From: Thiotrichaceae bacterium
GTDB lineage: Bacteria; Pseudomonadota; Gammaproteobacteria; Thiotrichales; Thiotrichaceae
NCBI GenBank assembly: GCA_026989145.1
Contig: JALSJU010000009.1
Coordinates: 40,154-104,153 of the forward strand
DNA: 64,000 nt
Direction: 5' to 3'
Shown: positions 46,322 to 61,313 of the stretch, one piece after another
Layout: each line of letters begins with the position of its first letter
Position numbering within the stretch: position 1 is the first letter of the stretch
Made by a program: the position numbers and the translations under genes
The notes under the pieces: model-generated
What the model was told of the DNA's origin: nothing
Databases searched by the model: none
The model's input: only the letters and a program-made list of their open reading frames with translations

Positions 46322-48799
46322 TTATAGTTTAATACTGCGCAATCGTAGTGAGTTCACAATGACTGATACAGAACTAAAGCTCATCGCTGTAGCCGCTATC
46401 ATTGGTGACAGTAGTAACCCAAACACTGGATATAAAGCACCCGCCGCAACAGGCACGCCTAAGATATTGTAAATAAAGGCAAAGAATAAGTTTTGCTTAA
46501 TATTTTTCATCACCCCATGACTGAGTTTTTTGGCCTTTACTATGCCTTGCAGATCCCCTTTCACCAAAGTGATTTCAGCGCTTTCAATAGCCACATCGGT
46601 GCCTGTACCCATAGCAATGCCGACATTCGACTGAGCAAGTGCAGGTGAATCATTAATCCCATCTCCGGCCATTGCGACTAATAAACCTTGTGACTGTAAA
46701 TCTTTAATTTTATTAAGTTTATCTTCGGGTAAACAGTCAGCTACGTATTCTGTTAATTTTAGCTCATCTGCTACGGCTTTGGCCGTATTGCCATTATCCC
46801 CCGTCATCATGATAACTTTTACACCACTATCAATAAGTTGCGTTATTGCCTCTTTACTGCTTTTCTTAATCGCATCATAAATCGACACATAACCCACTGC
46901 CTTTTTATCAATAGCGATATAAGACACTGTTTTACCAAGTTTTTGTTCAGCTAAAATTTCACTGTCTAACTCAGCTGAGATACTCACATCCATTTGGGTC
47001 ATGAGTTTTTTATTACCTAAAGATATTTGTTTTTTATCAAGTATTCCTATCACACCTTTACCGGCAACTGCTTCAAAGTCATCAACCTCATTAAGACTAA
47101 GCGATTGTAATTTAGCGTATTTAACAATGGCTTCTGCCAAAGGGTGTTCACTATACTGATTAAGTGAGGCAATTTGCTGCAATAGCGTGTCGCTTTCCTC
47201 ACCTTGGAGTGCGAAGACTTTTTCTACTGAAGGCTTACCTTCCGTAATGGTTCCGGTCTTATCTGTGATTAATACATCAACCTTATCCATTGTCTCTAGG
47301 GCTTCTGCATTTTTAATGAGAATCCCTGATTGAGCGCCTTTACCAACGCCAACCATAACCGACATGGGTGTGGCTAAACCCAATGCACAAGGACACGCAA
47401 TAATTAATACTGCAATAGCATTCACAAAGCCAAAGACATAAGCAGGTTCTGGACCAAATTGAACCCACACAAAAAAGGTGATTAGCGCTACGCCAATAAC
47501 GATTGGAACAAAGTATTTTGAAATCGTATCAGCTAGCTTTTGAATAGGCGCTCGTGAGCGGCTAGCATCATTAACCATTTGAATAATTTGTGATAACAAC
47601 GTATCTGCACCAACTCTTTGTGCCACCATGACGAATGATTTGTTGCCATTGATTGTACCTGAGCTTACTTTGTCACCTTCTGATTTATCGACTGGAATTG
47701 GCTCACCTGAAATCATCGACTCATCAACATTACTTTTTCCCTCTGTGATTTTTCCATCAACGGGAATCTTATCACCTGGCTTTACTCTTAAAAAATCACC
47801 TTCTTTAATTTCATGAATTGAGATAACACGTTCTTCACCATTTTCAACGATTACTGCCTCTGAGGGAGCTAATTTCAATAACTCTTTAAGTGCGCCACTC
47901 GTTTGGCTATGCGCCCTAGCCTCTAACAATTGACCAAGTAAAACCAAGGTCAAGATAACCGCAGTTGCTTCAAAATAAAGAAAAACTGTACCCTCCTCTG
48001 TTTTAAATTGATCAGGGAAAACATCAGGAAATAACATCGCAATAATACTAAACACAAAAGCCACACCTGTGCCGATACCTACAAGCGTAAACATATTAAG
48101 GTTCATAGTTACGATTGACTTATAGGCACGTTCAAAAAACATCCAGCAAGCATAAAAGACCACCGGTAAGGTGAGAAAAAACATCAACCAATTCCACGCT
48201 TGTTGACTCATTAGATTTAATAAAGGTTTGCCGGGGATTAAATCAGCCATCGCAATTAAGAACACCGGCACCGTAAATAGGGTGGCTACCTTCATCTTAT
48301 GCACAAGCTCTTGATACGCCTTTTGCTCATTTGATTCGGTTGGAGCCATCGGCACTAAATCCATTCCACAAATTGGGCAATCGCCAGCCTCATCTTTAAT
48401 GATTTCTGGATGCATCGGGCAGGTGTATTGCGAATCACTAACGCTCAAGCTGGGTTGTTCCAATAAGTCCATGCCGCAGACAGGACAATCACCCGGTTTT
48501 GGATAAGTCTTTTCATCTTCACAGTGCATAGGACAATAGTAAACGCCATTGCCCTTTTCCTCGCTTGCAATCATTTGGCTACCGCAACAATCTGCTTTTT
48601 CTTTTACGGCATGCTTATGTGACTGCTGTTGAAAATTATCTTTCTTATCGGCTCCCTTTAAAAAAATTTTAGGCTTATCCTTAAAAGTATTGAGGCAGTG
48701 TTTACTACAAAAGTAATAATTCTTGTTAGCTATATCCATAGTAAATTGACTATCGCTTTGAACCTCCATCCCACAAACTGGATCTTTAAGCTGTTTCAT
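46322..48799 (-). CDS. Copper-translocating P1B-type ATPase with YHS and two heavy-metal-binding modules
   Basis: 825-aa inner-membrane pump, probably exporting Cu(I). The N terminus is unusual: a YHS domain (DPVCGMEVQ ... YYFCSKHCLNTFKDKP, 6-43), then two Cys-rich heavy-metal-binding modules (YYCPMH ... CPVCGMDL, about 87-112, and YTCPMHPE ... CPICGMDL, about 125-148) in place of classical MXCXXC HMA domains. Eight helices, the metal site CPCALGLATP (about 467), phosphorylation site DKTGTITEG (about 512), SEHPLAEAI and GDGINDSPALA (about 712) follow. It is preceded by the DUF302 gene 42 bp upstream. It is the distal end of the copper island. No operator of the shared type is seen before this pair. 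Confidence 0.94.
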   Translation of the reverse strand: MKQLKDPVCGMEVQSDSQFTMDIANKNYYFCSKHCLNTFKDKPKIFLKGADKKDNFQQQSHKHAVKEKADCCGSQMIASEEKGNGVYYCPMHCEDEKTYPKPGDCPVCGMDLLEQPSLSVSDSQYTCPMHPEIIKDEAGDCPICGMDLVPMAPTESNEQKAYQELVHKMKVATLFTVPVFLIAMADLIPGKPLLNLMSQQAWNWLMFFLTLPVVFYACWMFFERAYKSIVTMNLNMFTLVGIGTGVAFVFSIIAMLFPDVFPDQFKTEEGTVFLYFEATAVILTLVLLGQLLEARAHSQTSGALKELLKLAPSEAVIVENGEERVISIHEIKEGDFLRVKPGDKIPVDGKITEGKSNVDESMISGEPIPVDKSEGDKVSSGTINGNKSFVMVAQRVGADTLLSQIIQMVNDASRSRAPIQKLADTISKYFVPIVIGVALITFFVWVQFGPEPAYVFGFVNAIAVLIIACPCALGLATPMSVMVGVGKGAQSGILIKNAEALETMDKVDVLITDKTGTITEGKPSVEKVFALQGEESDTLLQQIASLNQYSEHPLAEAIVKYAKLQSLSLNEVDDFEAVAGKGVIGILDKKQISLGNKKLMTQMDVSISAELDSEILAEQKLGKTVSYIAIDKKAVGYVSIYDAIKKSSKEAITQLIDSGVKVIMMTGDNGNTAKAVADELKLTEYVADCLPEDKLNKIKDLQSQGLLVAMAGDGINDSPALAQSNVGIAMGTGTDVAIESAEITLVKGDLQGIVKAKKLSHGVMKNIKQNLFFAFIYNILGVPVAAGALYPVFGLLLSPMIAATAMSFSSVSVIVNSLRLRSIKL

Positions 48800-48841: not shown

Positions 48842-49240
48842 TTAGTGAGTGAAGTCACCACCTAAAGCTGATCTAACCCTAAGCAACCGTTGGCGAACTT
48901 CTTGCGCGAGTGTTTCTACATCGGGTCTATCAACTAATGTAAATACCGCTGCTGGGTCCATAAACGAAACTACTACTCCTGTTGCTACCGTGCGTAACAC
49001 AATATTACAGGGTAATAACAAGCCGATATCAGGCTCTGCCATCAATGCTTGATGCGCTAAAGGTGGGTTACAAGCGCCTAATATTTTATAAGGCTCCATA
49101 TCCTCACCCAGCTTATTTTTTAACGTTGGTTGAATATCAATCTCGGTCAACACACCAAAACCTTCATCTTTTAATGCGTTAATAACATTTGGCTCAATAG
49201 ATTCTAAATCACCTGCCAATAATGTAGAAAAGTTATACAT
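48842..49240 (-). CDS. DUF302 domain protein
   Basis: 132 aa from the ATG at 49240, which has a perfect ribosome site (aggagggaattATG); the track's start at 49312 adds 24 unlikely residues. The domain fits DUF302: LKDEGFGVLTEIDIQPTLKNKLG, YKILGACNPPLAHQAL, LLPCNIVLR and VVSFMDPAAVF. DUF302 proteins are common beside copper and sulfur-oxidation genes, but the biochemical role is unknown. Most likely co-transcribed with the downstream copper ATPase. Confidence 0.92.
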   Translation of the reverse strand: MYNFSTLLAGDLESIEPNVINALKDEGFGVLTEIDIQPTLKNKLGEDMEPYKILGACNPPLAHQALMAEPDIGLLLPCNIVLRTVATGVVVSFMDPAAVFTLVDRPDVETLAQEVRQRLLRVRSALGGDFTH

Positions 49241-49327
49241 AATTCCCTCCTGGAAATCAGTGCAAGAAGATATGTGAAGAGAATTGATTTCTTGCCACTT
49301 CTTTTTATACAAAAATTTTCTTCTAAA

Positions 49328-49362: not shown

Positions 49363-49381
49363 TAGTTTACTGTGCCAATGA

Positions 49382-49687
49382 CTAGTTTTTACTCATGTAG
49401 TCAATTGAAAATAGATCACTGGTATTGCTTGTTGCATGATGATCTGTATCTAAAGCTGTTGATGTGATCACTCCACCATCATTCTCATTCCCACCACTGA
49501 ACTTTAGCTCATGTCCAACGTGACTACGAAATGATGCAACCGGTAATGCCTGTGATTGCTCCACCCAACCATTTCTGAATGCAGAATCATAACCATTTTC
49601 GTTATTGATCTGCTCGAATGCCATTGCAGGATTTGCTGTTAATACGATAAGTGCTGCAAGTCCACTTTTGATAATTAGATTTTTCAT
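49382..49687 (-). CDS. Small secreted protein 1 of the copper island
   Basis: 101-aa protein with a signal peptide (SGLAALIVLTANPAMAFEQ, cleavage likely after AMA). The mature part is polar, with no Cys, a few His (SHVGHELKF, TDHHATS) and no domain I recognise. The ribosome site caggagaatta is good. It is monocistronic, with its own terminator and a copy of the shared operator at 49774-49790. Its upstream region is a diverged duplicate of that of the other small secreted protein. A role in periplasmic metal handling is inferred from context only. Confidence 0.72.
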   Translation of the reverse strand: MKNLIIKSGLAALIVLTANPAMAFEQINNENGYDSAFRNGWVEQSQALPVASFRSHVGHELKFSGGNENDGGVITSTALDTDHHATSNTSDLFSIDYMSKN

Positions 49688-49729: not shown

Positions 49730-49752
49730 AACGCTCTTGTTTGTTTAGCGTT
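49730..49752 (-). promoter_or_regulatory. 5'-terminal mRNA stem-loop of small secreted protein 1
   Basis: AACGCT and AGCGTT pair around an 11-base loop. With the -10 box at 49759-49764, transcription should start at about 49752, so the hairpin would sit at the very 5' end of the message. Confidence 0.55.
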
Positions 49753-49758
49753 GAGGTA

Positions 49759-49790
49759 ATAATAAGGGAAGATACTTAGCTGATAATTAG
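49759..49790 (-). promoter_or_regulatory. Shared operator and -10 box upstream of small secreted protein 1
   Basis: Plus-strand ACTTAG-CTGAT-AATTAG (49774-49790). On the minus strand CTAAGT is followed after nine bases by TATTAT (49764-49759), a good -10. The spacing equals that at three other promoters in the island. Confidence 0.72.
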
Positions 49791-49821
49791 ATGCGTCAAT
49801 AAAAAGCTTATTTTTAAATTA

Positions 49822-49987
49822 AACCTGAATCCATGAATTCAATACGGGTAACAGGTGCGTAAGATATTAGTTTAGCACGAGATTTTAAAAAATCTTAGCT
49901 TCACCCATGGTTAAGCGGGTCTTTTTTAAAATCGTGATGAATCAATATCTTGCGTACTGTGCCGTAGTGAAGTCACGGATTCAGGTT
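49822..49987. repeat. Family C palindromic repeat, copy 2 (longest)
   Basis: 166 bp. The left end is aacctgaatccatgaattca; the right end is the complement of aacctgaatccgtgacttca. The interior holds cgatttt/aaaatcgt-like and gattttttaaaatc arms. Read in reverse it matches the copy at 8152 (actacggcacagtacgcaag, attgattcatcacg). The gap 49688-50203 holds this repeat, the operator, and the porin terminator, and no gene. Confidence 0.8.
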
Positions 49988-50022
49988 AAAGGCATTACAC
50001 CATTTGTGTATAGAACGGACAT

Positions 50023-50047
50023 AAAAAAACCAGCTTAAAAGCTGGTT
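50023..50047 (-). terminator. Terminator downstream of the porin gene
   Basis: On the minus strand AACCAGCTT/AAGCTGGTT is followed by TTTTTAT. It lies about 160 bp past the porin stop codon. Confidence 0.85.
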
Positions 50048-50203
50048 AAGTTTAAAATGAAGTACTTGCCTCTTCGACTTAGGTATTTAAATATATTACT
50101 AAGGAGAGTCAAAACCTCGTCAACAAATTTAAACTATAAGACCTAATAAGTGTTGTCAAAGAGTCAAATACTTCAATCTTGAAGATAACATCAAATGCTA
50201 TTC

Positions 50204-51295
50204 TTAAAATTTGATCCGTGAACCTAGAGAGACCGTATTCAATGCTTCTAAATCACCCGCAGATCTTTCTAACTTTGCTTGTTGGATGTCGCCAAAAATC
50301 TCAATGCGTCTTTTTGGCATTAAATACACATAAGATGCATTAACTCGTTTCGCTTTATCACCAAGTTTTGCTAGGTCATTTACCACATGGCATCCCAATG
50401 AGACCATATGGTTTTTTGCGCCGCCCATTTTTTTACCCACCTTAAGATAAGCACCTTTTGGGTCAACAGATGTGTTATCAGGGTCACGTTTACCATAGTG
50501 ACCTGTTATATTAAATCCATTAGCCATAAGGTATGAAACAGATAAACCTAATTGTTTAAAGTCTGATTTACTTTCTTTCACATACCCAAGCCGGCTGGTT
50601 AACTTTGCACCAGCCCCTAGTGGTTGATTATAACTAAGACCAATTTCAGAACCACGCCCAGTTTTACTTACAGCCACACCAATTGGGCCATACGTTGGTA
50701 AATCATATCGAATACGATTATTACGACTAAAACCATCAAAATCGCTAAAGACTTTTCCCATTTTTATGACTTTAGCGCCTGTTTTATCAGCAAAACTTAA
50801 GCCACCATGTAAAAAATCACCGGCATTATTTGCAACCCATGTTCCCGAGTTGTCGGCCTCAGAAGTGTTATTGGCAGCACCATCACCTTTGCCTAAAGAG
50901 AGCTTACCCCAGCCTCCTTTGAGCCATAAGTCTCTTTTGCGGGAGGTAAAAACGTTGTTATTATTAGCACCATCAATATCAAGCGCTGAGCCTTTATTAT
51001 CTTCAAACTGTGTTTCAATATTAATTCCAGCAGATGCGTTTGAACCTAGGCTTGTTTTACCTACGATTCTTACTCGCGAGCCACTATTAGTATTATCCAC
51101 AAATAATGTATCAGAATCTGTACCATTATCAGCAAAAGTCATAGCACGATTGACTTGTCCTGAAACGGTAAAATTCACGTTTGTTGAAGTTAGTGGTGTT
51201 GTTCCTGTAGCAGCTGTGGCAGAAGCACTTAAGATTAAAAAACTTGACCCCAGTAATGCACAACTCAAGCTTTTTGTTGTTAAATTTGTTTTCAT
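50204..51295 (-). CDS. Gram-negative outer-membrane porin
   Basis: 363-aa general-porin-like protein. A signal peptide (LLGSSFLILSASATAATG) precedes a mature beta-barrel (FTVSGQVNRAMTFADNGTD, GKTSLGSNASAGINIETQFED, NNRIRYDLPTYGPIGVAVSK) ending in the assembly signal GSRIKF with terminal Phe. It carries the shared operator 64 bp upstream, so it is likely part of the metal-responsive set. Its own promoter and terminator make it monocistronic. The substrate is unknown, and a role in metal uptake or efflux is inference. Confidence 0.9.
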   Translation of the reverse strand: MKTNLTTKSLSCALLGSSFLILSASATAATGTTPLTSTNVNFTVSGQVNRAMTFADNGTDSDTLFVDNTNSGSRVRIVGKTSLGSNASAGINIETQFEDNKGSALDIDGANNNNVFTSRKRDLWLKGGWGKLSLGKGDGAANNTSEADNSGTWVANNAGDFLHGGLSFADKTGAKVIKMGKVFSDFDGFSRNNRIRYDLPTYGPIGVAVSKTGRGSEIGLSYNQPLGAGAKLTSRLGYVKESKSDFKQLGLSVSYLMANGFNITGHYGKRDPDNTSVDPKGAYLKVGKKMGGAKNHMVSLGCHVVNDLAKLGDKAKRVNASYVYLMPKRRIEIFGDIQQAKLERSAGDLEALNTVSLGSRIKF

Positions 51296-51319
51296 TGTAA
51301 ATCTCCTTTTATTCGTAGT

Positions 51320-51336
51320 AGGTCACAAAACGACCT
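51320..51336 (-). promoter_or_regulatory. 5'-terminal mRNA stem-loop of the porin gene
   Basis: AGGTC and GACCT pair around a seven-base loop. The transcript start predicted from the -10 at 51344-51349 is about 51337, so the hairpin would begin at the 5' end. Confidence 0.5.
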
Positions 51337-51343
51337 ATTGATT

Positions 51344-51375
51344 ACAATACTCCTGAATACTTAGCTGAAACTTAG
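51344..51375 (-). promoter_or_regulatory. Shared operator and -10 box upstream of the porin
   Basis: Plus-strand ACTTAG-CTGAA-ACTTAG (51359-51375), a perfect direct repeat. On the minus strand CTAAGT-N9-TATTGT follows. Same geometry as the other three sites. Confidence 0.75.
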
Positions 51376-51386
51376 TAACAACCCAC

Positions 51387-51413
51387 CAAAAAGCCAGCCC
51401 TAAGGCTGGCTTT
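51387..51413. terminator. Terminator after small secreted protein 2
   Basis: AAAGCCAGCC-CTAA-GGCTGGCTTT, a strong near-symmetric stem with short A/T tracts on both sides. It lies 45 bp past the stop of the 51458-51763 gene and just upstream of the porin operator. Confidence 0.82.
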
Positions 51414-51457
51414 CATAATGCTAAGGAATGAACCTCTTAGCTCATTGATTTTATTGC

Positions 51458-51763
51458 TTATCTTTTATCAATTTCTACATCATGATGCCCATCTTTATTA
51501 TTACCTACAGGTAACTTTTCATTCTGTGGCCCATTCTCAGAATTACCAATTTCATGCTTATCACCCGAGTTTCCTTCAGGTAGCTTTTCGAATAGTGGAT
51601 CATTTTCTGAATTTTGGCTAAGTGTATGTTCATGATCTTTATTCATTTCTTTTTTCACATGCGGTACGTCACTATCAGCTAATGCTAGAGGGGCACTGCC
51701 TAGAAATACAGCTAGGATTGTAGTCGTTAATAAAGTGCTAATTTTAGTATTGCGTGTTTTCAT
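51458..51763 (-). CDS. Small secreted His- and repeat-containing protein 2 of the copper island
   Basis: 101-aa protein with a signal peptide (LLTTTILAVFLGSAPLALAD, cleavage after ALA). The mature part is very polar and has two imperfect repeats, NSENDPLFEKLPEGNSGDKH and NSENGPQNEKLPVGNNKDGH. His residues cluster (DHEHT, DGHHD), with Asp and Glu, which would suit metal binding. No family is recognised. The promoter, operator, 5' hairpin and family C repeat upstream all parallel the other small secreted gene, so the two blocks are probably a duplication, although the proteins no longer look alike. Confidence 0.72.
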   Translation of the reverse strand: MKTRNTKISTLLTTTILAVFLGSAPLALADSDVPHVKKEMNKDHEHTLSQNSENDPLFEKLPEGNSGDKHEIGNSENGPQNEKLPVGNNKDGHHDVEIDKR

Positions 51764-51792
51764 GTTTAATATCCTTAAGTTATGAAGTTTTA

Positions 51793-51810
51793 AACGCTTT
51801 TGTTTGCGTT
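51793..51810 (-). promoter_or_regulatory. 5'-terminal mRNA stem-loop of small secreted protein 2
   Basis: AACGC and GCGTT pair around eight bases. The -10 at 51817-51822 predicts a start at about 51810, the first base of the hairpin. Confidence 0.52.
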
Positions 51811-51816
51811 GAAAGA

Positions 51817-51848
51817 ATATTAAGGGAGAGAACTTAGTTGGGAATTAG
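51817..51848 (-). promoter_or_regulatory. Shared operator and -10 box upstream of small secreted protein 2
   Basis: Plus-strand ACTTAG-TTGGG-AATTAG (51832-51848). On the minus strand CTAAGT-N9-TAATAT follows, again with a nine-base gap. Confidence 0.72.
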
Positions 51849-51863
51849 CTGGACCTTATTTTT

Positions 51864-51927
51864 ACCTGAGTCCGTGATGAATCAATATTTTACGTTCTGT
51901 GCCGAAGTGGAATCACAGATTCAGGTT
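51864..51927. repeat. Family C repeat, short copy overlapping the kinase 3' end
   Basis: acctgagtccgtgatgaatc at the left and the complement of aacctgaatctgtgattcca at the right; it matches the ends of the other family C copies. Positions 51890-51927 are also the last 12 codons and stop of the sensor kinase gene. Confidence 0.75.
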
Positions 51928-53230
51928 TTACTAAAGGCTGACGATAACAAAATTTAAGCCCTCCTTCGGTTCGATTACTTAGCTCAATGCTACCACCGAG
52001 TATTTGGGCAATCTCTTGGCTAATGGCTAACCCTAGACCGTTGCCGGGTTGATGGCTTTCTTGTACACGATAAAATGGCTGCAAAACTCTTTTTAGCTCA
52101 CCTTCGGGTATACCAATACCATTATCATCAATACAAAAAAGTAAACTTTCAGTGCCATTATTGATCTCTTTGACAAGTGTAATGTCTATACGACTTCCTT
52201 GTGGTGAGTAATGAATGGCGTTATTTATAGCATTATACACAAGCTGCCCTAAACGATCTTGCTGGTCATAGACGACAAGATTTTCATCCTGTTTAATAAT
52301 GCCTAAATCAATATTCGCTTGTTCTGCCAATGGAAAAAGATTTTCTATCGCCTGAAACACTAAGGTGTTAAATACCACTTCTGTTTTAGCCGTACTATCT
52401 TCACTTTGTAGACGGGCTAAGTTTAATAATTGATTCACTAAGGTTCTTAAGCGCAGTAAACTTTTTTGTAAATCTTGTTGGCGTGATTCTCTATCAACCT
52501 GATCGAGCGTTTTATCAAGATTATCAACCTGTAACGATAAGGCTGCAATTGGGGTGCGTAACTCATGCGCGGCATCGGCAATAAATCGACGTTGTTTTTG
52601 TACGGTTTTAGAGACACGTAATAATAAACTATTGATTGAGTTCACAAATGGGCTAATTTCTTCTGGTACTTTTTTTGCATCCAATTTGAATAGCTTGATT
52701 GCCTCTTGTTGCTCTAACTCATCCGTTAGCTTTGCAAGTGATCGAAATTGGCGGTTAATGATATAATTAATCATCAAGAGCATTAAGCCAACCAGAATAA
52801 CGATCGGTAAAAACACACTTAAACTACTGCTTAAAGCAATTTCATCACGTTGTTCCGTTTGTTGTGCAATTGAAAAACGCCGTTTAGATTCTGGCTGACT
52901 CGTAATAAATACGCGCCATTGACTGCCATCCAGTTGCATTGTGTGAAAGCCATTGGGTGTTTCCATCGGTACGATAGGTATGTGCTGCTTTTTACCAAGC
53001 TCATTAATAATTACTGTATTCTTTTTAATATCATGGTGTAAATATTTAGACTCTTTAAGCGAATCTGCTTTAATCAATGCAGCAATTTCAAGCAATGTGT
53101 GGTCTTGTTGCTCACGAGCTTGCTTAAAAACAACCCACCCAGAAATTGCGCCAGCCAATAATACAAAGAGTAAGGCTGTAATAATAATCCAACGATTTAA
53201 TTCACGTTTGAGAGAGTACGTTTTAATCAC
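51890..53230 (-). CDS. Sensor histidine kinase (QseC/PmrB type)
   Basis: Inner-membrane kinase, 446 aa from the GTG at 53230, which overlaps the regulator stop as GTGA; the track start at 53245 is less likely. Helix 1 (WIIITALLFVLLAGAISGWVV), a ~100-residue periplasmic sensor region, helix 2 (LPIVILVGLMLLMINYII), and a HAMP-like linker are followed by the H-box DAAHELRTPIAALSLQ, N-box VYNAINNAIHYSPQG, DDNGIGIPEG and GNGLGLAISQEIAQ. The last ~12 residues (KPESVIPLRHRT) are encoded by a dispersed repeat. From its position it probably senses copper or periplasmic metal stress. Confidence 0.93.
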   Translation of the reverse strand: MIKTYSLKRELNRWIIITALLFVLLAGAISGWVVFKQAREQQDHTLLEIAALIKADSLKESKYLHHDIKKNTVIINELGKKQHIPIVPMETPNGFHTMQLDGSQWRVFITSQPESKRRFSIAQQTEQRDEIALSSSLSVFLPIVILVGLMLLMINYIINRQFRSLAKLTDELEQQEAIKLFKLDAKKVPEEISPFVNSINSLLLRVSKTVQKQRRFIADAAHELRTPIAALSLQVDNLDKTLDQVDRESRQQDLQKSLLRLRTLVNQLLNLARLQSEDSTAKTEVVFNTLVFQAIENLFPLAEQANIDLGIIKQDENLVVYDQQDRLGQLVYNAINNAIHYSPQGSRIDITLVKEINNGTESLLFCIDDNGIGIPEGELKRVLQPFYRVQESHQPGNGLGLAISQEIAQILGGSIELSNRTEGGLKFCYRQPLVKPESVIPLRHRT

Positions 53231-53883
53231 TTTGTCACCAACCACCCCATGCCTCTAACATTTTTGATAGCGGCTTTACCGAGCTTTTTGCGTAAGCCGT
53301 GAATAATAAACTCGACTGCATTGCTAGCAACTTCTTCATTCCAACCATACAGCGCATCTTCTAAGCTTTGTTTTGAAAGTATCGCGCCAGGATTTGCCAT
53401 TAAGGCATGCAATAAAGCGTATTCTTTTGCCGAGAGTGAAAAAACTTCGTCAGCCACTTCAACCTCTTTGGTTGTTGTATTAAGTTGCAGCAAAGCGCTT
53501 TTCAGTACGGGGTCTGCTGCGCCCTGATTACGCCTAACGACGGCACGAATTCGTGCATGCAGTTCATCAATTGAAAACGGTTTTACTAGGTAATCATCTG
53601 CGCCTAAGTCAAGACCTTTGATACGGTCTTCAATAGAGTCTCGCGCTGTTAAAATAATAACAGGCATAATTTTCTTGGCTTTTCGCATGGTCTCTAAAAC
53701 TTCTAAACCATCCTTAATGGGAAGCCCTAAATCTAGAAGCACTAATGAATAGGCTTCTAGATAGAGTGATGAAAGCGCTGACTCACCATCACGCACCCAA
53801 TCGACCGCATGACCATCATCTTTTAAAGCGCGCTCTACCGCGTAACCTATCAATTCATCATCTTCTACTAATAAAATACGCAT
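53227..53883 (-). CDS. OmpR-family response regulator (QseB/PmrA subfamily)
   Basis: 218-aa regulator. The receiver has MRILLVEDDELIG, the phospho-acceptor Asp in LVLLDLGLPIKDGLEV, LTARDSIEDRIKGLDLGADDYLVKPF; the winged-helix DNA-binding domain has LSAKEYALLHALMANPGAILS and LYGWNEEVASNAVEFIIHGLRKKLG. The LYGW-EV-SNAVE pattern is that of QseB/PmrA-type regulators, whose known boxes are hexamer direct repeats spaced by five bases. That is the geometry of the shared operator here, so it is the best candidate regulator. It starts one base after the cytochrome gene and overlaps the kinase. Confidence 0.94.
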   Translation of the reverse strand: MRILLVEDDELIGYAVERALKDDGHAVDWVRDGESALSSLYLEAYSLVLLDLGLPIKDGLEVLETMRKAKKIMPVIILTARDSIEDRIKGLDLGADDYLVKPFSIDELHARIRAVVRRNQGAADPVLKSALLQLNTTTKEVEVADEVFSLSAKEYALLHALMANPGAILSKQSLEDALYGWNEEVASNAVEFIIHGLRKKLGKAAIKNVRGMGWLVTK

Positions 53884-53884
53884 A

Positions 53885-54382
53885 TTATTTCAAGTTTCTC
53901 TGCGCCCACATCGCGTAGGTTTTATCAGGCCAAAGGCTAGAAATAAAGGCAATGACGGCTTCTTTCTCTTTATCCGTTAATTTATCTTTAAAGGCTGGCA
54001 TGGTTCCACCTAATGGAATTCCCCCATTATTAACGGTGCGTAATAATAGTTCTTTAGAGTGGTGCCATGCATGCGCCGTACCATTCAGTGGCGGTGCTGG
54101 AAAATTGCCATTTGCATCTGCTTTCTTCCACTCTTTGACTAAACCTTGTCCCTTATCACCATGACAGCTCGCACAGTTGTCTTTAAAAACCTGTTTTCCT
54201 GTTATTTCTTGAGTCGTGGTGTACCAACGCGTTGTCTTAGATTGCGCGCTAGTTTTAACACTTTTTTCTACATGTGAAGCAGTTTCCACGATTTTTACGG
54301 TTTTTCCTTCATCCGAATCTGCACTACCGCAGGCACTTAGAAGCACACTACTAAAACTTAGCATTATTAATTGTTTTACCAT
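53885..54382 (-). CDS. c-type cytochrome lipoprotein
   Basis: 165-aa lipoprotein (lipobox LSAC, Cys18) with one heme-binding motif (CASCH in KDNCASCHGDKGQGL) and a distal Met ligand in GGTMPAFKDKLT. The domain is a cytochrome c class I (CccA-like) fold. It is probably tethered in the periplasm, where it could pass electrons to or from the multicopper oxidases encoded upstream. It lies 47 bp downstream of one oxidase gene and one base before the regulator gene. Confidence 0.9.
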   Translation of the reverse strand: MVKQLIMLSFSSVLLSACGSADSDEGKTVKIVETASHVEKSVKTSAQSKTTRWYTTTQEITGKQVFKDNCASCHGDKGQGLVKEWKKADANGNFPAPPLNGTAHAWHHSKELLLRTVNNGGIPLGGTMPAFKDKLTDKEKEAVIAFISSLWPDKTYAMWAQRNLK

Positions 54383-54429
54383 CTTTATCCTCCTACTATT
54401 TCAATAGTGCAAGCTCGGTACAGTAATGC

Positions 54430-55848
54430 TTACACGACAACAAATTGCCCCATCATGCCTCGATCTTCATGCTCTAAGAAATGACAGTGGTACATATAAG
54501 GAACCGTCGCATTGGTGTAATCAATCATTTTAATCAGAAGTTTGACTGTTCCATTGGCAGGCACAAATACAACATCTTTATAACCTTTTTCATTTTCAGC
54601 TACGTTTGATGTACTTCCATCTCGCTCTATCAACCTAAAATGAGTAGCATGAATGTGAAAATTATGATCCATCCCCATATTATTTTTCACTTCCCATATT
54701 TCTGTTTGACCCAGAGGTACTCGTTCATCGATACGCTTCATATCCATGCTTTTACCATTAATTTGAAAGCTTCCTCTACGCCCAGAAAACACAAAAGAAC
54801 GCGTACGAACGGCTGATGCGACATTTATTGGATCTAACGTGGTAAGTTTATTGGCTAACGTCGTAACTTGGGTAGCTGATTTACTGACATTAATAGTCAT
54901 AAACGTTTTGCTATGCCGATAATCTTTGAATTCAAGTCTTTGGTTTAAATCACCGGAAAGGTCGATGACTATTTCAGCACGTTCAGCGGGCGATAACCTG
55001 AGACGTGAGATTGAAACGGGTGCTTCTAAAAAGCCATTGTCCGTTGCTATTTGTTTGAATTTTCGACCATCAGAAAAACCTAACTCATAAACCGATGAGT
55101 TTGAGCCGTTTAATATACGAAAACGAATTTGCTTAGCTTCAACATCCAAGGTCGGTTCAATAGCACCATTTGCAATAAAGGTATCGCCTGTGTAGCCATG
55201 CATAATTTCACGCATACTTGGACTATAGTCAATTTGTCCATTTGCAAAATATCGATCCTGTAACACTAAAGGAATATCATCAACACCATAGCGTTTTGGT
55301 AAATCTAAAGCCTTGCTCTCATCATCTTCAACAATAATGAGACCGGCTAACCCTTGGTAAACTTGTTCTGCTGTTTTTTCCATCGTGTGAGGGTGATACC
55401 AATTTGTACAGGCTTTTTGATTCACCGTATATTGTGGAGACCAAGCCTGATTAGGTGCAATCGCTTGATGTGCCGTACCATCCATCGTCGGTGGCACATG
55501 CATTCCATGCCCATGCATCGTGATAGTTTCTTTTAAGTTATTTTTATAATTAATTGACACGCGATCACCCTGTTGCAGTAATAATGTAGGGCCTAAATAG
55601 GAGCTATCATTAATTGCAAAGGTATCAGTGAGTTTACCTTCAAAAAAAGTGTGTTTAGCTTCTTTTATGTCAAGGTCGTAATGTTGTATGCCATTTTTCA
55701 TCGTAGGTTTTAAAAGTTTTGGTATCGGTAAGGCCAACGTTTTCACCGCGGGATTTGTTGAGTTCCTTGAGGAACTATTCCCCCCACAACCCGTAACAAA
55801 CAATAACGATGTGACTGAACTAAAAACTAAAAATTCTCTTCTATGCAT
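54430..55848 (-). CDS. Multicopper oxidase 1 (lipoprotein, CueO/SufI-like)
   Basis: 472-aa three-cupredoxin-domain oxidase. The N terminus MHRREFLVFSSVTSLLFVTGC has a twin-Arg and a lipobox (Cys21), so it is probably Tat-exported and lipid-anchored. Copper motifs are HGHGMHVP (a usual HWHG here reads HGHG), WYHPHTMEKT, HNFHIHATHF and the type 1/3 region YHCHFLEHEDRGMMGQF. The C-terminal block matches the adjacent oxidase almost exactly, a sign of tandem duplication. It has no Met-rich insert. It would oxidise Cu(I) or other metals in the periplasm. Confidence 0.92.
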   Translation of the reverse strand: MHRREFLVFSSVTSLLFVTGCGGNSSSRNSTNPAVKTLALPIPKLLKPTMKNGIQHYDLDIKEAKHTFFEGKLTDTFAINDSSYLGPTLLLQQGDRVSINYKNNLKETITMHGHGMHVPPTMDGTAHQAIAPNQAWSPQYTVNQKACTNWYHPHTMEKTAEQVYQGLAGLIIVEDDESKALDLPKRYGVDDIPLVLQDRYFANGQIDYSPSMREIMHGYTGDTFIANGAIEPTLDVEAKQIRFRILNGSNSSVYELGFSDGRKFKQIATDNGFLEAPVSISRLRLSPAERAEIVIDLSGDLNQRLEFKDYRHSKTFMTINVSKSATQVTTLANKLTTLDPINVASAVRTRSFVFSGRRGSFQINGKSMDMKRIDERVPLGQTEIWEVKNNMGMDHNFHIHATHFRLIERDGSTSNVAENEKGYKDVVFVPANGTVKLLIKMIDYTNATVPYMYHCHFLEHEDRGMMGQFVVV

Positions 55849-55901
55849 TCTTTTTTCCTAAATAACATTTAAAATTTGTATTCTTAATTTGCAAGCCTGA
55901 A

Positions 55902-55918
55902 ACCTAGATAATATTTAG
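55902..55918 (-). promoter_or_regulatory. Degenerate copy of the shared operator
   Basis: Plus-strand ACCTAG-ATAAT-ATTTAG between the two oxidase genes has the right spacing, but two mismatches. No -10 lies nine bases on (GCAAAT), so it may be a decayed site. Confidence 0.3.
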
Positions 55919-55927
55919 ACTACAACC

Positions 55928-57421
55928 TTAAACTACGACGAACTGCCCCATCATACCTTGATCTTCATGCTCTAAAATATGGCAGTGATACATGTATGGA
56001 ATTTTAGCGTCTGAGTATTCGGGAAATTTCATAATAATTCGTACCGCTTCACCAGGTGGCACTAATACCACATCTTTAAGGCCAGATTCACTGGGGTGTG
56101 GGCGCTTGCCGTTACGATCTAAAATTCGAAATTGCACATTATGTACATGGAACGGATGCGCCATCATAGAGCTATTGGAGACCTCCCATACCTCAGTGGA
56201 GTTTGCTTTAACTTGAAAATCAATACGCTTGATATCCATGCTTTTACCATTAATGCGGAACATGCCGCCACGATTTCCACCTCCCATGCGATTCATCATT
56301 CCACCCATCATGCCACCCATGCCCATTTCCAAAGAGAAACTGCGCGTTGTGGTCACCACTTTTGGGTTGAGGTCGATCTTACTATTACGCAATACATTCG
56401 GTATTTTACGCGTTGAAGTTTGGGCTTGGCGTGCATCAATCTTCATAATCGTTAATGTTTTGTTATTCATTTGCATCATCGGCATCATGCCGCCATTAGC
56501 ACTCGGTATACTTTGTAGTATTACTTCTTTCTTATCGGATAAATCGATAAGAATCTCCACCCGTTCTGCCGCTGCTAAACGTACTTTATTGGTTTGAAAA
56601 GGCTTATGTAAAAAGCCACAATCACTAGCAATCACGTGAAACGGACGACCATCACTAAAGGCAAAGTTATAGGTACGGGCATTGGAGCCATTGTGTAACC
56701 GCAAACGTATCAAACTTTCCTTTGCAACTAATGTTGGCGTTACAACCCCATTGACTAATACGATAGAACCTTGCATTCCCATCATTCGATCCGGCATAGA
56801 ACTCATATAACTGAGCGTTGCATCTTGATTAAAGCGACGATCTTGAATGATGCAAGGAATATCATCAACTCCGTAATCATTAGGTAAACCGAGCTTATCA
56901 CTGCCTTCATCATCAATAATAAACATGCCTGCTAAACCATGATAAACCTGCGGGCCTGTTTTGTGCATGGCGTGTGAGTGATACCAGAGGGTGGCTGCTT
57001 CTTGACGGATTTTAAATCTTGAAAGCCATGTTTGTTTGGGTTGAATGGTTTGATGCGGGCCACCATCCATATTTGCCGGTAACGTCATACCGTGCCAGTG
57101 CAAAGTAGTGACTTCATTCAAACCATTATTTACCTGAATATTAACCGTATCCCCACGTTTAGCACGTAGCACAGGCCCAAGGTAACTTTGATTGATGCCA
57201 ATGGTTGGTGTATCAAGCCCTTGAAAAAAGGATGTTTTGCCCGCTTGAACAGCCAGCTTAAAAGTTACATTATTACCATTCCTAACCCCTCTATCTAAGG
57301 CAGGGACAACAAACGTGTTGAGGCTAACCGCTGTATTTTTAGCCAATAACGGTGTTGCCAAAGGCGCTAAAAGCCCTGTGACACTTAATGATTTTATAAA
57401 ATTTCTACGTGACTGTTTCAT
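55928..57421 (-). CDS. Multicopper oxidase 2 (Tat-exported, CueO-like)
   Basis: 497-aa oxidase with a Tat signal (SRRNFIK, then LLAPLATPLLA). The three-domain copper motifs are LHWHGMTLP, LWYHSHAMHKTG, HPFHVHNVQF and YHCHILEHEDQGMMGQF. A Met-rich stretch (MGMGGMMGGMMNRMGGGNRG) lies near residue 375 and could bind Cu(I) as in CueO. A strong terminator-like hairpin lies just before its ribosome site. It is paired with multicopper oxidase 1 downstream and probably belongs to the same long operon. Confidence 0.93.
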   Translation of the reverse strand: MKQSRRNFIKSLSVTGLLAPLATPLLAKNTAVSLNTFVVPALDRGVRNGNNVTFKLAVQAGKTSFFQGLDTPTIGINQSYLGPVLRAKRGDTVNIQVNNGLNEVTTLHWHGMTLPANMDGGPHQTIQPKQTWLSRFKIRQEAATLWYHSHAMHKTGPQVYHGLAGMFIIDDEGSDKLGLPNDYGVDDIPCIIQDRRFNQDATLSYMSSMPDRMMGMQGSIVLVNGVVTPTLVAKESLIRLRLHNGSNARTYNFAFSDGRPFHVIASDCGFLHKPFQTNKVRLAAAERVEILIDLSDKKEVILQSIPSANGGMMPMMQMNNKTLTIMKIDARQAQTSTRKIPNVLRNSKIDLNPKVVTTTRSFSLEMGMGGMMGGMMNRMGGGNRGGMFRINGKSMDIKRIDFQVKANSTEVWEVSNSSMMAHPFHVHNVQFRILDRNGKRPHPSESGLKDVVLVPPGEAVRIIMKFPEYSDAKIPYMYHCHILEHEDQGMMGQFVVV

Positions 57422-57431
57422 AATATGATTC

Positions 57432-57469
57432 CAAAAAGGCTGGCTGAAACAATGTAAATTTCAGCCAGC
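57432..57469 (-). terminator. Intra-operon terminator or attenuator between copB and oxidase 2
   Basis: On the minus strand GCTGGCTGAAA/TTTCAGCCAGC is followed by CTTTTTGG. It ends just before the oxidase 2 ribosome site and no room for a promoter remains, so it should attenuate downstream expression rather than end the operon. Confidence 0.75.
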
Positions 57470-57514
57470 AATATAAACGACTCGCAACGTTTATTTATTA
57501 CGCTTAGCGCCTAT

Positions 57515-58249
57515 TTAATACCAAGCACGAATTCCTAATACAACGCTACTCTCACTGGTGTCTTCACCTGCATCTTTAGCAAGATCAGCTGTACTGCCCA
57601 ATTTTTTAGCCCAGTTTACGCCAATGTAGGGCGCAAATTCACGTTTGATTTCATAGCGTAATCTTATCCCAGCTTCTACATCAGCAAGCCCAGAAGCGAC
57701 ACCCATTGGCTTATCATCTTTAGCATAAGCATTAAGCTCAACCTCGGGGGACAGTACTAATTTCTGGGTTAGCATCATTTCGTATTCAAAAGCAGCATTA
57801 AGCTTAACTTGACCCTTTTTACTAAACGACAACGAAGCATCCGTTTCAAAATAATAAGGCGCTAACCCTTGTATGCCCAAAGTCAGGTAGTTTCGTTTTG
57901 CATCTGCGGTTGTATCATGTCGTATTCCTGCCTGTATATCCCAAAAAGGATCTAACGCACGGCTATATAAAAATTGTGTTTCAGTCCCCTCAATCTTACC
58001 TGCAACCTGCTCACCCGATGATTTTAACCAGAATTTATTAAGGTCTTGACCTATCCAAAGCCCGCTCTCCCAGGCCATTGTGGTATCACCATCGACACGC
58101 CCTAATTCAAATTTATCTAGCATTAGTTTTGTTTCAACGGGGTCATCTTCCATTCTTGCGAAAGCCGAGTTACTGAGTAAACTTACGCTGCTAATCAATG
58201 TTACCGATAATATTGCCTTTTTGATTAGCTGTTTTGTTGTTTGTTTCAT
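57515..58249 (-). CDS. copB: Copper resistance protein CopB (outer membrane)
   Basis: 244 aa from the ATG at 58249, which has a ggagaataataATG ribosome site; the track start at 58339 lies inside copA. The signal peptide LISSVSLLSNSAFA is followed by the CopB/PcoB beta-barrel (KFELGRVDGDTTMAWESGLWIGQDLNKFWLKSSGE, LDPFWDIQAGIRHD, YEIKREFAPYIGVNWAKKLG, VVLGIRAWY). Unlike many PcoB proteins it lacks the long His/Met-rich N-terminal region. It starts 10 bp after copA. Confidence 0.94.
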   Translation of the reverse strand: MKQTTKQLIKKAILSVTLISSVSLLSNSAFARMEDDPVETKLMLDKFELGRVDGDTTMAWESGLWIGQDLNKFWLKSSGEQVAGKIEGTETQFLYSRALDPFWDIQAGIRHDTTADAKRNYLTLGIQGLAPYYFETDASLSFSKKGQVKLNAAFEYEMMLTQKLVLSPEVELNAYAKDDKPMGVASGLADVEAGIRLRYEIKREFAPYIGVNWAKKLGSTADLAKDAGEDTSESSVVLGIRAWY

Positions 58250-58259
58250 TATTATTCTC

Positions 58260-60350
58260 CTAAACCACTTTAACTTCACGGAACATGCCGAGCATGTGAT
58301 ACAACAAATGGCAATGGTATGCCCAGCGACCTCGAGCATCTGCTGTTACCAAATACGAAACTTTAGATCCTGGTTGTACAATAACAGTATGCTTTCTAGG
58401 CAAATAATTATCATCGCCTGTTTCAAGTTCACTCCATAGTCCGTGTAAATGCATTGGGTGACTCATCATGGTGTCATTGACCAAAGTAATGCGAACTCGC
58501 TCACCAAATTTAAGTTCAATTGGCTTGGCATCAGCATATTTAACCCCATTAATTGACCACATATAACGTGACATATTACCGGTTAGGTGAAGTTCAATTT
58601 CTCGACTGGGTTTGCGTTTATCTTTCGTTGGGTATAGGTTTTTTATGTCAGCATAGGTAAGTACTTTTCGACTATTTTTACGCAACCCAATACCCGGATC
58701 ACTAATCCCTAAGCGTGGTGCTTCTGCACGCATATCTACATGCGGGCCGTACTCAGTTGCGGCATGTTTGACACGTTTGGCGCTACTCTTATCCATGCCA
58801 TCCATACCGCCCATGTCCATACCAGAATGGTCCATGCCGTTCATTGGGCTAGACATTTTCATTTTAGAATGATCCATGCCTGCCATATTTTTAGATTTAT
58901 CTTTACAAGCTGCCATTGAGGCATGCATAGGATCAGAACAATCCATGCCTCCTGCCATATTTCCCATCTTCATTTTACTATGATCCATCTTTGACATGTC
59001 CCCCATTTTCATTTTGGAGTGATCCATACCTGCCATTTTTGGTTTATCTTTATTTTTACAGGCCGCCATTGAGGCATGCATCGGATCAGAACAATCCATT
59101 CCACCTGCCATATTTCCCATCTGCATTTTGCTATGATCCATCTTTTTACTGCCCCCCCCCATATCCATGCCTGAATGATCCATACCGCTCATATTGCTCA
59201 TATCCATTCCCATATCCATATGTGTTAAATCAGGCACAGGATCAACCTTTGGTACAGCGGCAGTCATCGTTTCATTGGGCGCTAATGTGCCACGCGCATA
59301 ACCAGACCGCCCTAACGATTGAGCAAAAATGGTATAAGCTTGGGACCCATCAGGTTCTACAATTACATCATAGTTTTCTGCTACACCGATGCGAAACTCA
59401 TCCACTGAAACAGGCTGAATATATTGCCCATCACTGGCAACCACGGTCATTTTTAAGCCGGGAATTCGTACATCAAAGAAGCTCATTGCCGAGGTATTAA
59501 CAAAACGTAACAAGACTTTTTCACCTGCTTTAAATACTCCACGCCAGCCTTTTCGAGGTGTACTGTTATTCATTAAGTAGGTATAGGTATAACCTGTCAC
59601 ATCGGATAAATCACGTTGACTCATGCGCATTTCATTCCACATTTTGCGCTTACCGAAAGTCTTACTTAAACCATCTTTCTTTATATCTTTTAGCAGGTCA
59701 CCCACCGTGCGCTCGTTAAAATTATAATAATGGCTCAACTTTTTTAATTTCCCGTAGACTCGCTTTGGATCTTCGTCTGTCCAGTCCGCTAACGATACGA
59801 CATACTCACGGTCAAATTTATAAGGGTAAGCATCTTTCGGTTCAATCACTATTACGCCGTGCATGCCCGTTTGCTCTTGAAAACCCGAATGACTGTGATA
59901 CCAATAAGTACCACTTTGATTCACTTTAAAGCGGTAAGTAAAGGTTTCGCCCGGCTTGATGCCATCAAATGAAAGCCCAGGTACACCATCCATTCGGTAA
60001 TCTAGAATCATTCCATGCCAATGAATAGAGCTTACTTCAGACAAGTTGTTGGTTACGTTTAAAGTAACCGTTTCACCCTCTTTCCAACGTAAGGTTGGCC
60101 CTGGAACCGTGCCATTAATGGCTGTTGCAACACGTGTTTTACCGGTAAAGTTGACCCGTTGCTCATCAATTGTTAGGTTAAAAACCTTACCTGTTAGCTC
60201 GGCTTCATGATTAGCTTTAAGTGCTTTAGTTGATTGAGATGATAGGCTTTGTGTTGTAGAACAACCTGTTAAGCCTAGCCCTGCAACTGCTCCACCGACC
60301 GCAAGCCCTTTAACAAAACGACGGCGTTTATTATCTAAGTTTGTTATCAT
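58260..60350 (-). CDS. copA: Methionine-rich multicopper oxidase CopA
   Basis: 696-aa CopA/PcoA-type periplasmic oxidase. The N terminus has a twin-Arg motif (RRRFVKG, 9-15) and a lipobox (LTGC, Cys30). Copper motifs are IHWHGMILD, YWYHSHSGFQEQTG, HPMHLHGLWSE and WAYHCHLLYHMLGMF. A ~150-residue insert (about 370-530) is rich in MDHSKMKMG and MDHSGMDMGG units and contains MDCSDPMHASMAACK twice, a duplication visible in the DNA. It also contains a run of nine G. It lies 12 bp from the upstream cytochrome gene and 10 bp from copB. Confidence 0.95.
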   Translation of the reverse strand: MITNLDNKRRRFVKGLAVGGAVAGLGLTGCSTTQSLSSQSTKALKANHEAELTGKVFNLTIDEQRVNFTGKTRVATAINGTVPGPTLRWKEGETVTLNVTNNLSEVSSIHWHGMILDYRMDGVPGLSFDGIKPGETFTYRFKVNQSGTYWYHSHSGFQEQTGMHGVIVIEPKDAYPYKFDREYVVSLADWTDEDPKRVYGKLKKLSHYYNFNERTVGDLLKDIKKDGLSKTFGKRKMWNEMRMSQRDLSDVTGYTYTYLMNNSTPRKGWRGVFKAGEKVLLRFVNTSAMSFFDVRIPGLKMTVVASDGQYIQPVSVDEFRIGVAENYDVIVEPDGSQAYTIFAQSLGRSGYARGTLAPNETMTAAVPKVDPVPDLTHMDMGMDMSNMSGMDHSGMDMGGGSKKMDHSKMQMGNMAGGMDCSDPMHASMAACKNKDKPKMAGMDHSKMKMGDMSKMDHSKMKMGNMAGGMDCSDPMHASMAACKDKSKNMAGMDHSKMKMSSPMNGMDHSGMDMGGMDGMDKSSAKRVKHAATEYGPHVDMRAEAPRLGISDPGIGLRKNSRKVLTYADIKNLYPTKDKRKPSREIELHLTGNMSRYMWSINGVKYADAKPIELKFGERVRITLVNDTMMSHPMHLHGLWSELETGDDNYLPRKHTVIVQPGSKVSYLVTADARGRWAYHCHLLYHMLGMFREVKVV
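58871..59142 (-). repeat. Direct repeat inside copA (period 150 bp)
   Basis: Two ~121-bp units (58871-58991 and 59021-59142), each encoding a Met/His-rich stretch with one MDCSDPMHASMAACK. They differ at a few bases only, so the duplication is fairly recent. Confidence 0.8.
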
Positions 60351-60362
60351 TTTTATTTTCTC

Positions 60363-61073
60363 CTAGTGCGCATGCGCTTTATCATGACCGTGCTCTTTAG
60401 GCTCAGCTTTAACAGTAGTTTGTGCTTTTTGTTTATGATGCCCATCAGTATCAGAGTGCCCACCACTTGCTGTTACTTTGCTCTTCATCATCGTCAACAT
60501 CTGTTGCAGCTTTTCTTTAGGCATCGCAGAGTGATCCATATCAGGCATCATCTTTTTCATAAAAGCGAGAATTTCAGGCTTGCTCATTTTACTAATATCC
60601 ATGTCTTTCATCTTGCCTTGCATAGTTTTCATGGTGTCAGACTGCCCCACTGCTTTGAGGCTTTTAATGTAGTTGACCAACTCCCAAATTTGCGCATCCG
60701 ATAATACGGTTTTCCAACCCGGCATGGCGCCACGACCATTTTGTATCTTCCACGCAAAATCACCGTCTGGGTGCATACCTGCCATAACGCTTAAGTTAGC
60801 GGGCTTTGGTTTTAGGTTTGCACCCGCTGAGCCATTACCATCGGCCTTAGCACCATGACATGAAGCACAGTACAAGAAATACGATTTTTTACCCCGATCA
60901 ATGGAAGCTGCATCATACTTAACAGGATTGGGGATTGCTGTAGCCGCTTCTGGCGCCATCCAATGTGCACCTGCATTATCACCTCCCTTTTTATGCCCAC
61001 CACTATGATTTCCTTCGGCGAATAGGCTGCTTGAGGCCATTAGCAATAAACTACTTATGAGTAATTTTGTCAT
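60363..61073 (-). CDS. Periplasmic c-type cytochrome, first gene of the copper operon
   Basis: 236 aa from the ATG at 61073 (MTKLLISSLLLMASSSLFA); the track start at 61091 is less likely. After the signal, a cytochrome c domain has one CASCH in FLYCASCHGAKADGNG and a Met ligand in GRGAMPGWKTV. A Met/Lys-rich helical tail (about 150-200, KMKDMDISKMSKPEIL) and a His-rich end (HGHDKAHAH) would suit metal binding. It heads the run cytochrome-copA-copB-oxidases-cytochrome-regulator-kinase, and the shared operator lies 67 bp upstream of its ATG. Confidence 0.9.
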   Translation of the reverse strand: MTKLLISSLLLMASSSLFAEGNHSGGHKKGGDNAGAHWMAPEAATAIPNPVKYDAASIDRGKKSYFLYCASCHGAKADGNGSAGANLKPKPANLSVMAGMHPDGDFAWKIQNGRGAMPGWKTVLSDAQIWELVNYIKSLKAVGQSDTMKTMQGKMKDMDISKMSKPEILAFMKKMMPDMDHSAMPKEKLQQMLTMMKSKVTASGGHSDTDGHHKQKAQTTVKAEPKEHGHDKAHAH

Positions 61074-61124
61074 ATGTTTCTCTCTTATCATTTGTTTAAC
61101 AAGTGTTTTTAACTATCTGTAACA

Positions 61125-61156
61125 ATAGTATTGGATGAAACTTAGCTAAAACTTAG
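61125..61156 (-). promoter_or_regulatory. Shared operator and -10 box upstream of the copper operon
   Basis: Plus-strand ACTTAG-CTAAA-ACTTAG (61140-61156), a perfect direct repeat. On the minus strand CTAAGT-N9-TACTAT follows, the same nine-base gap as at the other three sites. No clear hairpin is seen at the predicted 5' end here. Confidence 0.72.
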
Positions 61157-61313
61157 GCAAATTATTGCTAAGGGGTTTATCAGTTAAAATTTTATTAATT
61201 AACTATAAACGACTGTTAATCGGTTTTTGCTATGACTCACGCCTCCACTGTTTTAAAATACTTTTCTAATAAAAATAAATACAAGCTCAAGCTTGTGAGA
61301 CAGGGGATTTCAG

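Follow-up and report, generated by a model that had tools for sequence, protein, structure and literature searches.

Which regulator controls the copper-resistance genes of a Thiotrichaceae bacterium, and does it belong to a family known for this task? The window analysed here is a stretch of 64,000 nucleotides from this organism (contig JALSJU010000009.1, positions 40,154 to 104,153), in which a response regulator (RR) and a sensor histidine kinase (HK) lie within a copper island and four promoters carry the same operator-like element. We put the probability at roughly 85% that the four operators belong to the island's own RR, which is likely a PmrA-like class II activator that uses a one-base variant of the PmrA operator and was recruited to copper.

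Operators and promoter geometry

A preliminary description of the window had placed four plus-strand elements, ACTTAG-N5-A[AC]TTAG, at 49774, 51359, 51832 and 61140. All four are present exactly there, and they are the only exact matches within the 64 kb. The elements and their promoters are as follows.

61140..61156, minus strand: operator 1, CTAAGTTTTAGCTAAGT, two direct CTAAG half-sites with an 11-bp period; exact composite site
61125..61130, minus strand: -10-like TACTAT, nine bases from operator 1
51832..51848, minus strand: operator 2, CTAATTCCCAACTAAGT, ahead of a small secreted protein gene
51817..51822, minus strand: -10-like TAATAT of the operator 2 promoter
51359..51375, minus strand: operator 3, CTAAGTTTCAGCTAAGT, ahead of the porin gene
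51344..51349, minus strand: -10-like TATTGT of the operator 3 promoter
49774..49790, minus strand: operator 4, CTAATTATCAGCTAAGT, ahead of the second small secreted protein gene
49759..49764, minus strand: -10-like TATTAT of the operator 4 promoter

Read in the orientation of the gene, each site is CTAA[GT]T-N5-CTAAGT, followed by nine bases and TANNNT. The same early description had claimed a common orientation and a constant nine-base gap between half-site and -10-like hexamer, and both hold at four of four promoters; the operators are all directed at genes, namely the cytochrome c-copA-copB cluster, the porin and the two small secreted proteins. The distance from operator start to start codon is 65 bp for operator 1 (cytochrome c heading the copA-copB cluster), 80 bp for operator 3 (porin), 85 bp for operator 2 (small secreted protein 51458..51763) and 103 bp for operator 4 (small secreted protein 49382..49687). 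With the -10 taken at its usual place, the half-sites span roughly -38 to -22, which is the -35 zone, and a consensus -35 is not evident. Two direct half-sites with an 11-bp period at a fixed distance from the -10 form the arrangement of a PmrA-type class II promoter. At a locus in another genome (L136, 9040-9067), three tandem CTAAGT half-sites with this period stand ahead of a PepSY gene, which suggests that more than one dimer could bind there.

We scanned the bacterium's own genome (2.63 Mb, 133 contigs), pairing genome scans with a reversed-pattern control. The composite motif CTAA[GT]T-N5-CTAAGT-N9-TANNNT occurs four times, always in the copper island, and its reversed control not at all. 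Since about 0.04 sites are expected genome-wide from base composition, chance does not explain these four. The preliminary description had proposed such a scan and named random occurrence across the genome as the outcome that would tell against a regulon; exact composite sites are instead confined to the island. When one mismatch was allowed, the genome gained two extra composite sites, one of them on contig C82, and the control likewise two. At two mismatches the motif was no commoner than its reversed control in either the window or the genome, so only exact and near-exact sites are informative.

The 17-mer operator by itself has exactly five exact occurrences genome-wide. The fifth, on contig C82 (G000:C82:4024, L174), is upstream of an acyltransferase (Acyl_transf_3) gene and has CATTAT in the -10 position. 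The orthologue of this gene in the nearest species, G004, also has an exact operator in front, with TATACT (G004:C25:8600, L156). The C82 operator very probably marks a fifth, unlinked regulon member, and the acyltransferase possibly serves envelope modification by analogy with PmrA regulons. A near-match operator with TAAAAT ahead of a membrane-protein gene (G000:C133:6960, L175) is, at that score, indistinguishable from chance.

The response regulator and its probable operator variant

The RR and HK genes lie between operator 1 and operator 2.

53227..53883, minus strand: response regulator, OmpR/PhoB family, PmrA/QseB-like (Pfam, NCBIfam, PDB); recognition helix S187 N188 F192 I193 H195 G196
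51890..53245, minus strand: sensor histidine kinase, QseC/PmrB-like (Pfam, NCBIfam)

The RR combines a receiver with a winged-helix Trans_reg_C domain, as expected of the OmpR/PhoB family (PF00072, 97.1 bits; PF00486, 65.1 bits; both above cut-off). Its best-scoring NCBIfam model is the PmrA (BasR) equivalog, at 238.8 bits against a cut-off of 330, and the second best is the QseB equivalog (204.7 bits, cut-off 345). Several other models rank between these and the heavy-metal CusR/CopR/SilR model TIGR01387. The RR falls short of the latter too (172.4 bits, cut-off 279.2) and of the CusR model (127, cut-off 420). The closest solved structures in the PDB are PmrA/BasR, and the alignment to PmrA is ungapped.

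The operator follows this regulator from genome to genome. Among 57 relatives we found 23 exact composite sites versus two for the reversed control. Where the RR orthologue reaches at least 60% identity, 10 of 12 genomes contain the motif; of the 45 others, 2 do. In a class-wide sample it is present in 8 of 369 genomes, and in five of these eight, from five different families and none of them the window's genus, the orthologous RR gene follows the site at a distance of 61, 497, 755, 756 or 2098 bp. The motif stands directly before the RR gene itself, a position of the autoregulation type, in G014 and, with one mismatch, in Massilia. Elsewhere it precedes genes for PepSY-domain and DUF347 membrane proteins, often in one operon with RR and HK, and in species without any copper gene near, it often lies immediately ahead of the RR gene or its operon. 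The best argument for the RR as the operator's ligand is that the two stay together while the targets vary.

The idea, put forward earlier, of one regulon run by the local PmrA/QseB-type pair therefore has the support of the RR scores, the structures and the co-occurrence of the operator with RR orthologues, with binding by the RR presumed. Part of the binding mode assumed with it also stands, namely the direct repeat with an N5 gap, but the half-site itself departs from the PmrA/QseB consensus, with C for T throughout the clade described below. At Alpha- and Betaproteobacterial loci (L064, L066, L051) the operator precedes genes for PepSY and DUF347 proteins and is placed either upstream of the RR or where the HK gene ends (3' end). 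DUF347 is a candidate target or partner of the CTAAG regulator clade.

We then took a census that used no prior motif. At 140 loci (the RR gene plus or minus up to 6 kb), every 5-mer was counted as a direct repeat at an 11-bp period. Twenty loci had RRs with F/Y192 and I/L193, as in the window, and 104 had H/Y193 RRs. The top 5-mer near the window-type RRs was CTAAG-N6-CTAAG, found at 13 of 20 loci versus 1 of 104 near H/Y193 RRs (Fisher 7e-12). Conversely, TTAAG-N6-TTAAG was the leading repeat that is not GC-rich near H/Y193 RRs (34/104) and was found at none of the 20 window-type loci (p 0.0017). The signal was confined to the N6 gap, with no other spacing showing it, and shuffled sequence gave about 0-1 loci. 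TANNNT occurred at offset 10 in 13 of 15 exact CTAAG repeats and at the same offset in 19 of 56 of the TTAAG group. The PmrA box [CT]TTAA[GT]-N5-[CT]TTAA[GT] thus does not describe the window-type sites (TTAAG 0/20, CTAAG 13/20), a statement that concerns sites and not binding.

A tree of 92 RRs placed every CTAAG member except L218 in one clade of 27 (SH-aLRT, the Shimodaira-Hasegawa-like approximate likelihood ratio test, 99). Besides the window's family, this clade takes in Massilia, Gallionellaceae, Acidocella and a Hyphomicrobiales genome. Among 218 positions, 193 is the only perfect discriminator, being I/L in the clade and H/Y/F/Q in the other 65 RRs; the next best is W214 in the wing. 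PmrA contacts bases through helix alpha8, and the residues that do so in its structure with DNA are 187, 188, 192, 195, 196 and 210 (PMC4660055); residue 193 sits among them. The change from TTAAG to CTAAG probably goes together with I/L for H/Y at this position of the recognition helix. Residue 192 or 196 alone was rejected as the setting of the operator, because members with V192 and members with varied residues at 196 have CTAAG sites as well. Motif, geometry, co-occurrence, clade and residue correlation are all covered by the sequence evidence.

At VHY-type loci such as L052, L054, L058, L144 and L236, the TTAAG-N6-TTAAG of the sister RRs stands ahead of genes for large periplasmic proteins, PepSY proteins and RRs. 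These large proteins have DFSxxVxxxGPAVVN N-termini and resemble DegP/HtrA-type proteases by eye.

Copper genes, sensor kinase and transcripts

The genes around the pair, and the stretch of the kinase that bears on copper, are listed here.

60363..61091, minus strand: cytochrome c, first gene of the operator 1 transcript
58260..60350, minus strand: CopA-type multicopper oxidase with MDHSKM-type Met/His repeats (TIGR01480, 868.6 bits, cut-off 479)
57515..58339, minus strand: CopB outer-membrane protein (Pfam PF05275)
55928..57421, minus strand: CueO/FtsP-like multicopper oxidase
54430..55848, minus strand: second CueO/FtsP-like multicopper oxidase
53885..54382, minus strand: cytochrome c, separated by one base from the RR gene downstream
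52943..53038, minus strand: periplasmic stretch of the kinase; H70-H71-D72, Q87-H88 and H101 are candidate metal-binding residues
51458..51763, minus strand: small secreted protein with GNSENG and DGHHD motifs, no Pfam match
50204..51295, minus strand: Gram-negative porin (Porin_4)
49382..49687, minus strand: second small secreted protein, no Pfam match
48842..49312, minus strand: DUF302 protein, downstream of operator 4 beyond a terminator-like hairpin
46322..48799, minus strand: copper-translocating P-type ATPase (TIGR01511, 573 bits, cut-off 397)

The pair is thus linked to copper-resistance genes under a shared operator, and this linkage recurs in related species, where the operator lies directly before a P-type ATPase (L132), cytochrome c/copA or a porin. 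Kinases of the copper-island type have two periplasmic motifs in common, QH[IV]P and HHD (in one kinase NHD), represented by H70, H71 and H88 in the window's kinase. PepSY-type kinases of the same clade lack both, including that of the second pair of G007. The gene content and these sensor histidines suggest a copper-responsive pair, and the histidines read as an adaptation of the sensor to copper once the system had been recruited. Copper use appears to be derived and to have arisen in the window's genus, whose ancestors' targets seem to have been PepSY, DUF347 and RR-HK operons. G007 has two paralogous pairs of the clade (L137, L138): PepSY adjoins one, and the other belongs to a copper island and has a histidine-bearing kinase. 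It is the only species with both kinds, and its double pair is a natural test of cross-talk and recruitment.

Small secreted proteins are encoded in the window (51458-51763, 49382-49687) and at L131, L134, L138, L154 and L157. One family among them has HEH, GNSEN and DGHHD motifs in common, and the operator repeatedly precedes it. These proteins, which have no Pfam match, are candidate periplasmic metal-binding proteins.

Three of the four island promoters are followed by a predicted hairpin at the 5' end of the mRNA; the copA transcript has none in its first nucleotides.

51793..51810, minus strand: predicted 5'-terminal mRNA hairpin (AACGC...GCGTT)
51319..51337, minus strand: predicted 5'-terminal mRNA hairpin of the porin transcript (TAGGTCG...TGACCTA)
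49730..49752, minus strand: predicted 5'-terminal mRNA hairpin (AACGCT...AGCGTT type)

We compared the 30 nucleotides starting four bases past the -10 with shuffles at 23 non-redundant CTAAG-clade promoters. These segments form by far the more stable folds (mean z -2.64, 83% below -1). Segments 10-45 nucleotides further downstream show no such enrichment (0-17% below -1), and the effect is weaker at TTAAG promoters (-0.64) and absent at random TANNNT positions. The hairpin sequences vary between genes and species. The obvious reading is that a 5'-terminal hairpin would protect the mRNA; alternatively, its sequence could be a second DNA-binding site. An Rfam search of 44000-64000 matched no family. 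A further terminator-like hairpin, at 49331-49363, lies between the small gene at 49382 and the DUF302/P-ATPase genes; with the one at 57439-57469 that is weighed below, it may set limits to the transcripts and to any autoregulation of the island's RR-HK pair.

Binding, activation, copper as the signal and residue 193 as the cause are what we infer from these data, and the mechanism probably runs as follows. The kinase presumably detects periplasmic copper through histidines gained in the window's genus. A head-to-tail dimer of phosphorylated RR would occupy the two CTAAG half-sites, which are spaced by one helical turn and stand in the place of a -35 element, nine to ten bases from the -10, and it would recruit RNA polymerase. 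The pair would then turn on CopA/CopB, the extra oxidases, the cytochromes, the porin and the small secreted proteins, the copper genes having joined the regulon later, in the window's genus. The fuller evolutionary account is evenly balanced in our judgement: that the clade switched its operator by one base per half-site through residue 193 with the geometry kept, that it travels with PepSY/DUF347, that it was recruited to copper through gained histidines, and that its hairpin-led mRNAs are stabilised.

Alternative readings and known systems

The operator and the pair might be as described and respond to something other than copper, such as a general envelope or metal cue of which the copper genes are one output. 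The cue could be comparable to the iron that PmrB senses, or be one that belongs with PepSY/DUF347 proteins. Outside the window's genus, operator and RR go with PepSY/DUF347 genes, mostly without copper genes, and it has been suggested that DUF347 transports other metals, for example lead (PMC4531530). However, the genes served by the island operators are all copper-related or co-located, and the histidine motifs are shared by copper-island kinases and absent from PepSY-type ones; we consider a non-copper signal unlikely. It is more doubtful still that a different regulator binds the element and that co-inheritance of the island ties it to the RR. Other PmrA/QseB-like RRs do exist in the genomes examined, and related RRs can share operators, as Pseudomonas CopR, CusR and CzcR share targets (PMC11195947). 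Against this, the motif tracks the RR clade through varied neighbourhoods in Gamma-, Beta- and Alphaproteobacteria, including positions directly before the RR gene, whereas the nearest RRs outside the clade adjoin the TTAAG version.

The sites could also go back to a single promoter that was multiplied by duplication or a mobile repeat, and have no regulatory role. Two of the four promoters have a repeat resembling a miniature inverted-repeat transposable element (MITE) just upstream, and among the small-protein promoters some appear to be duplicates. Yet the four promoters have little similarity beyond a core of 19-22 bases, and the element is conserved across families with unrelated flanks and in GC-rich genomes, which makes such an origin very improbable. 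Least credible, at a negligible probability, is that the search itself singled out a chance AT-rich 17-mer: the pattern with two mismatches is indeed no commoner than its control, but exact sites exceed the control both in the genome and across relatives, and the motif-blind census recovers CTAAG as its top 5-mer. Co-occurrence of the motif with the RR already refutes chance. Derivation of the sites from the nearby MITE-like repeat was rejected because the repeat does not contain them. This repeat is palindromic and about 165 bp long (49820-49990), and the genome contains about a dozen nearly complete copies of it besides many fragments; a 55-nucleotide remnant (51873-51927) overlaps the 3' end of the kinase open reading frame.

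Several observations weigh against assignment of the operators to the island's RR, or against parts of that assignment. Operator and residue 193 changed in effect once, in one clade, so that their correlation has no independent replicates and a phylogenetically independent test of the residue, with effectively one transition, is powerless. Two RRs outside the clade have F193, one of them with a TTAAG site, and a CTAAG repeat lies 4.2 kb from the H/Y193 RR L218. Recognition may not be exclusive, as PmrA of K. pneumoniae tolerates CCTAAG in one half-site (PMC10927774). G282 carries the motif without a close RR, and in G042 motif and RR are on different contigs; these two unexplained sites may be due to chance. 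Within the island, a strong terminator-like hairpin (57439-57469) between copB and the next multicopper oxidase puts transcription of the RR-HK genes from operator 1 in doubt.

If the four operators do belong to the island's RR, they record a natural specificity switch in a very large RR family, in which a single base differs, a single residue is the candidate and the geometry is kept, and the PmrA/QseB-like DNA code becomes directly testable by swapping residue and base. A copper regulon could then be built on a regulator other than CusR, and unannotated genes gain a predicted role in a regulon of porin, small secreted proteins, cytochromes and acyltransferase. In the open-access literature we found no paper that deals with a CTAAG operator, links DUF347 to a two-component system or describes a copper regulator of the PmrA/QseB type.

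The island can be compared with four known systems. Like Legionella LciRS, it would be a local copper-responsive two-component island with its own operator, the copper response being presumed here. However, the LciRS operator is an inverted repeat, ATTACAA-N2-TTGTAAT (PMC6989116), and the island kinase matches the LciS model weakly (97 vs 700 bits). With CusRS, CopRS and PcoRS it shares a pair beside the copA/copB-type genes that it appears to control. The island RR falls outside that subfamily, and the operators differ, those for copper in Pseudomonas being CTGACA-N5-GTAAT or ATTCAT-N2-ATGTAAT (PMC11195947). With QseB/QseC the proteins show a likeness: the kinase is nearest the QseC model and the RR second nearest QseB, but both scores are far below cut-off. 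A QseB site reported from Glaesserella, CTTAA-N4-CTTAG (PMC10714720), is similar, with a different operator spacing, and the targets differ as well.

PmrA/BasR shares with the island RR the OmpR/PhoB fold, the hexamer direct repeat with N5 and the conserved base-contact residues N188, H195 and R210. In the K. pneumoniae PmrA-DNA complex, half-1 of the box is where the -35 element is found (PMC4660055), and the island geometry implies the same position. The PmrA box is given as [CT]TTAA[GT]-N5-[CT]TTAA[GT] (PMC10729948) or TTTAAG-N5-TTTAAG (PMC10927774), whereas the island half-site is CTAAG, with C for T at the first base. The island RR further differs at residues 192 (V to F), 193 (H to I) and 196 (N to G), and its targets are copper genes where those of PmrA serve lipid A modification.

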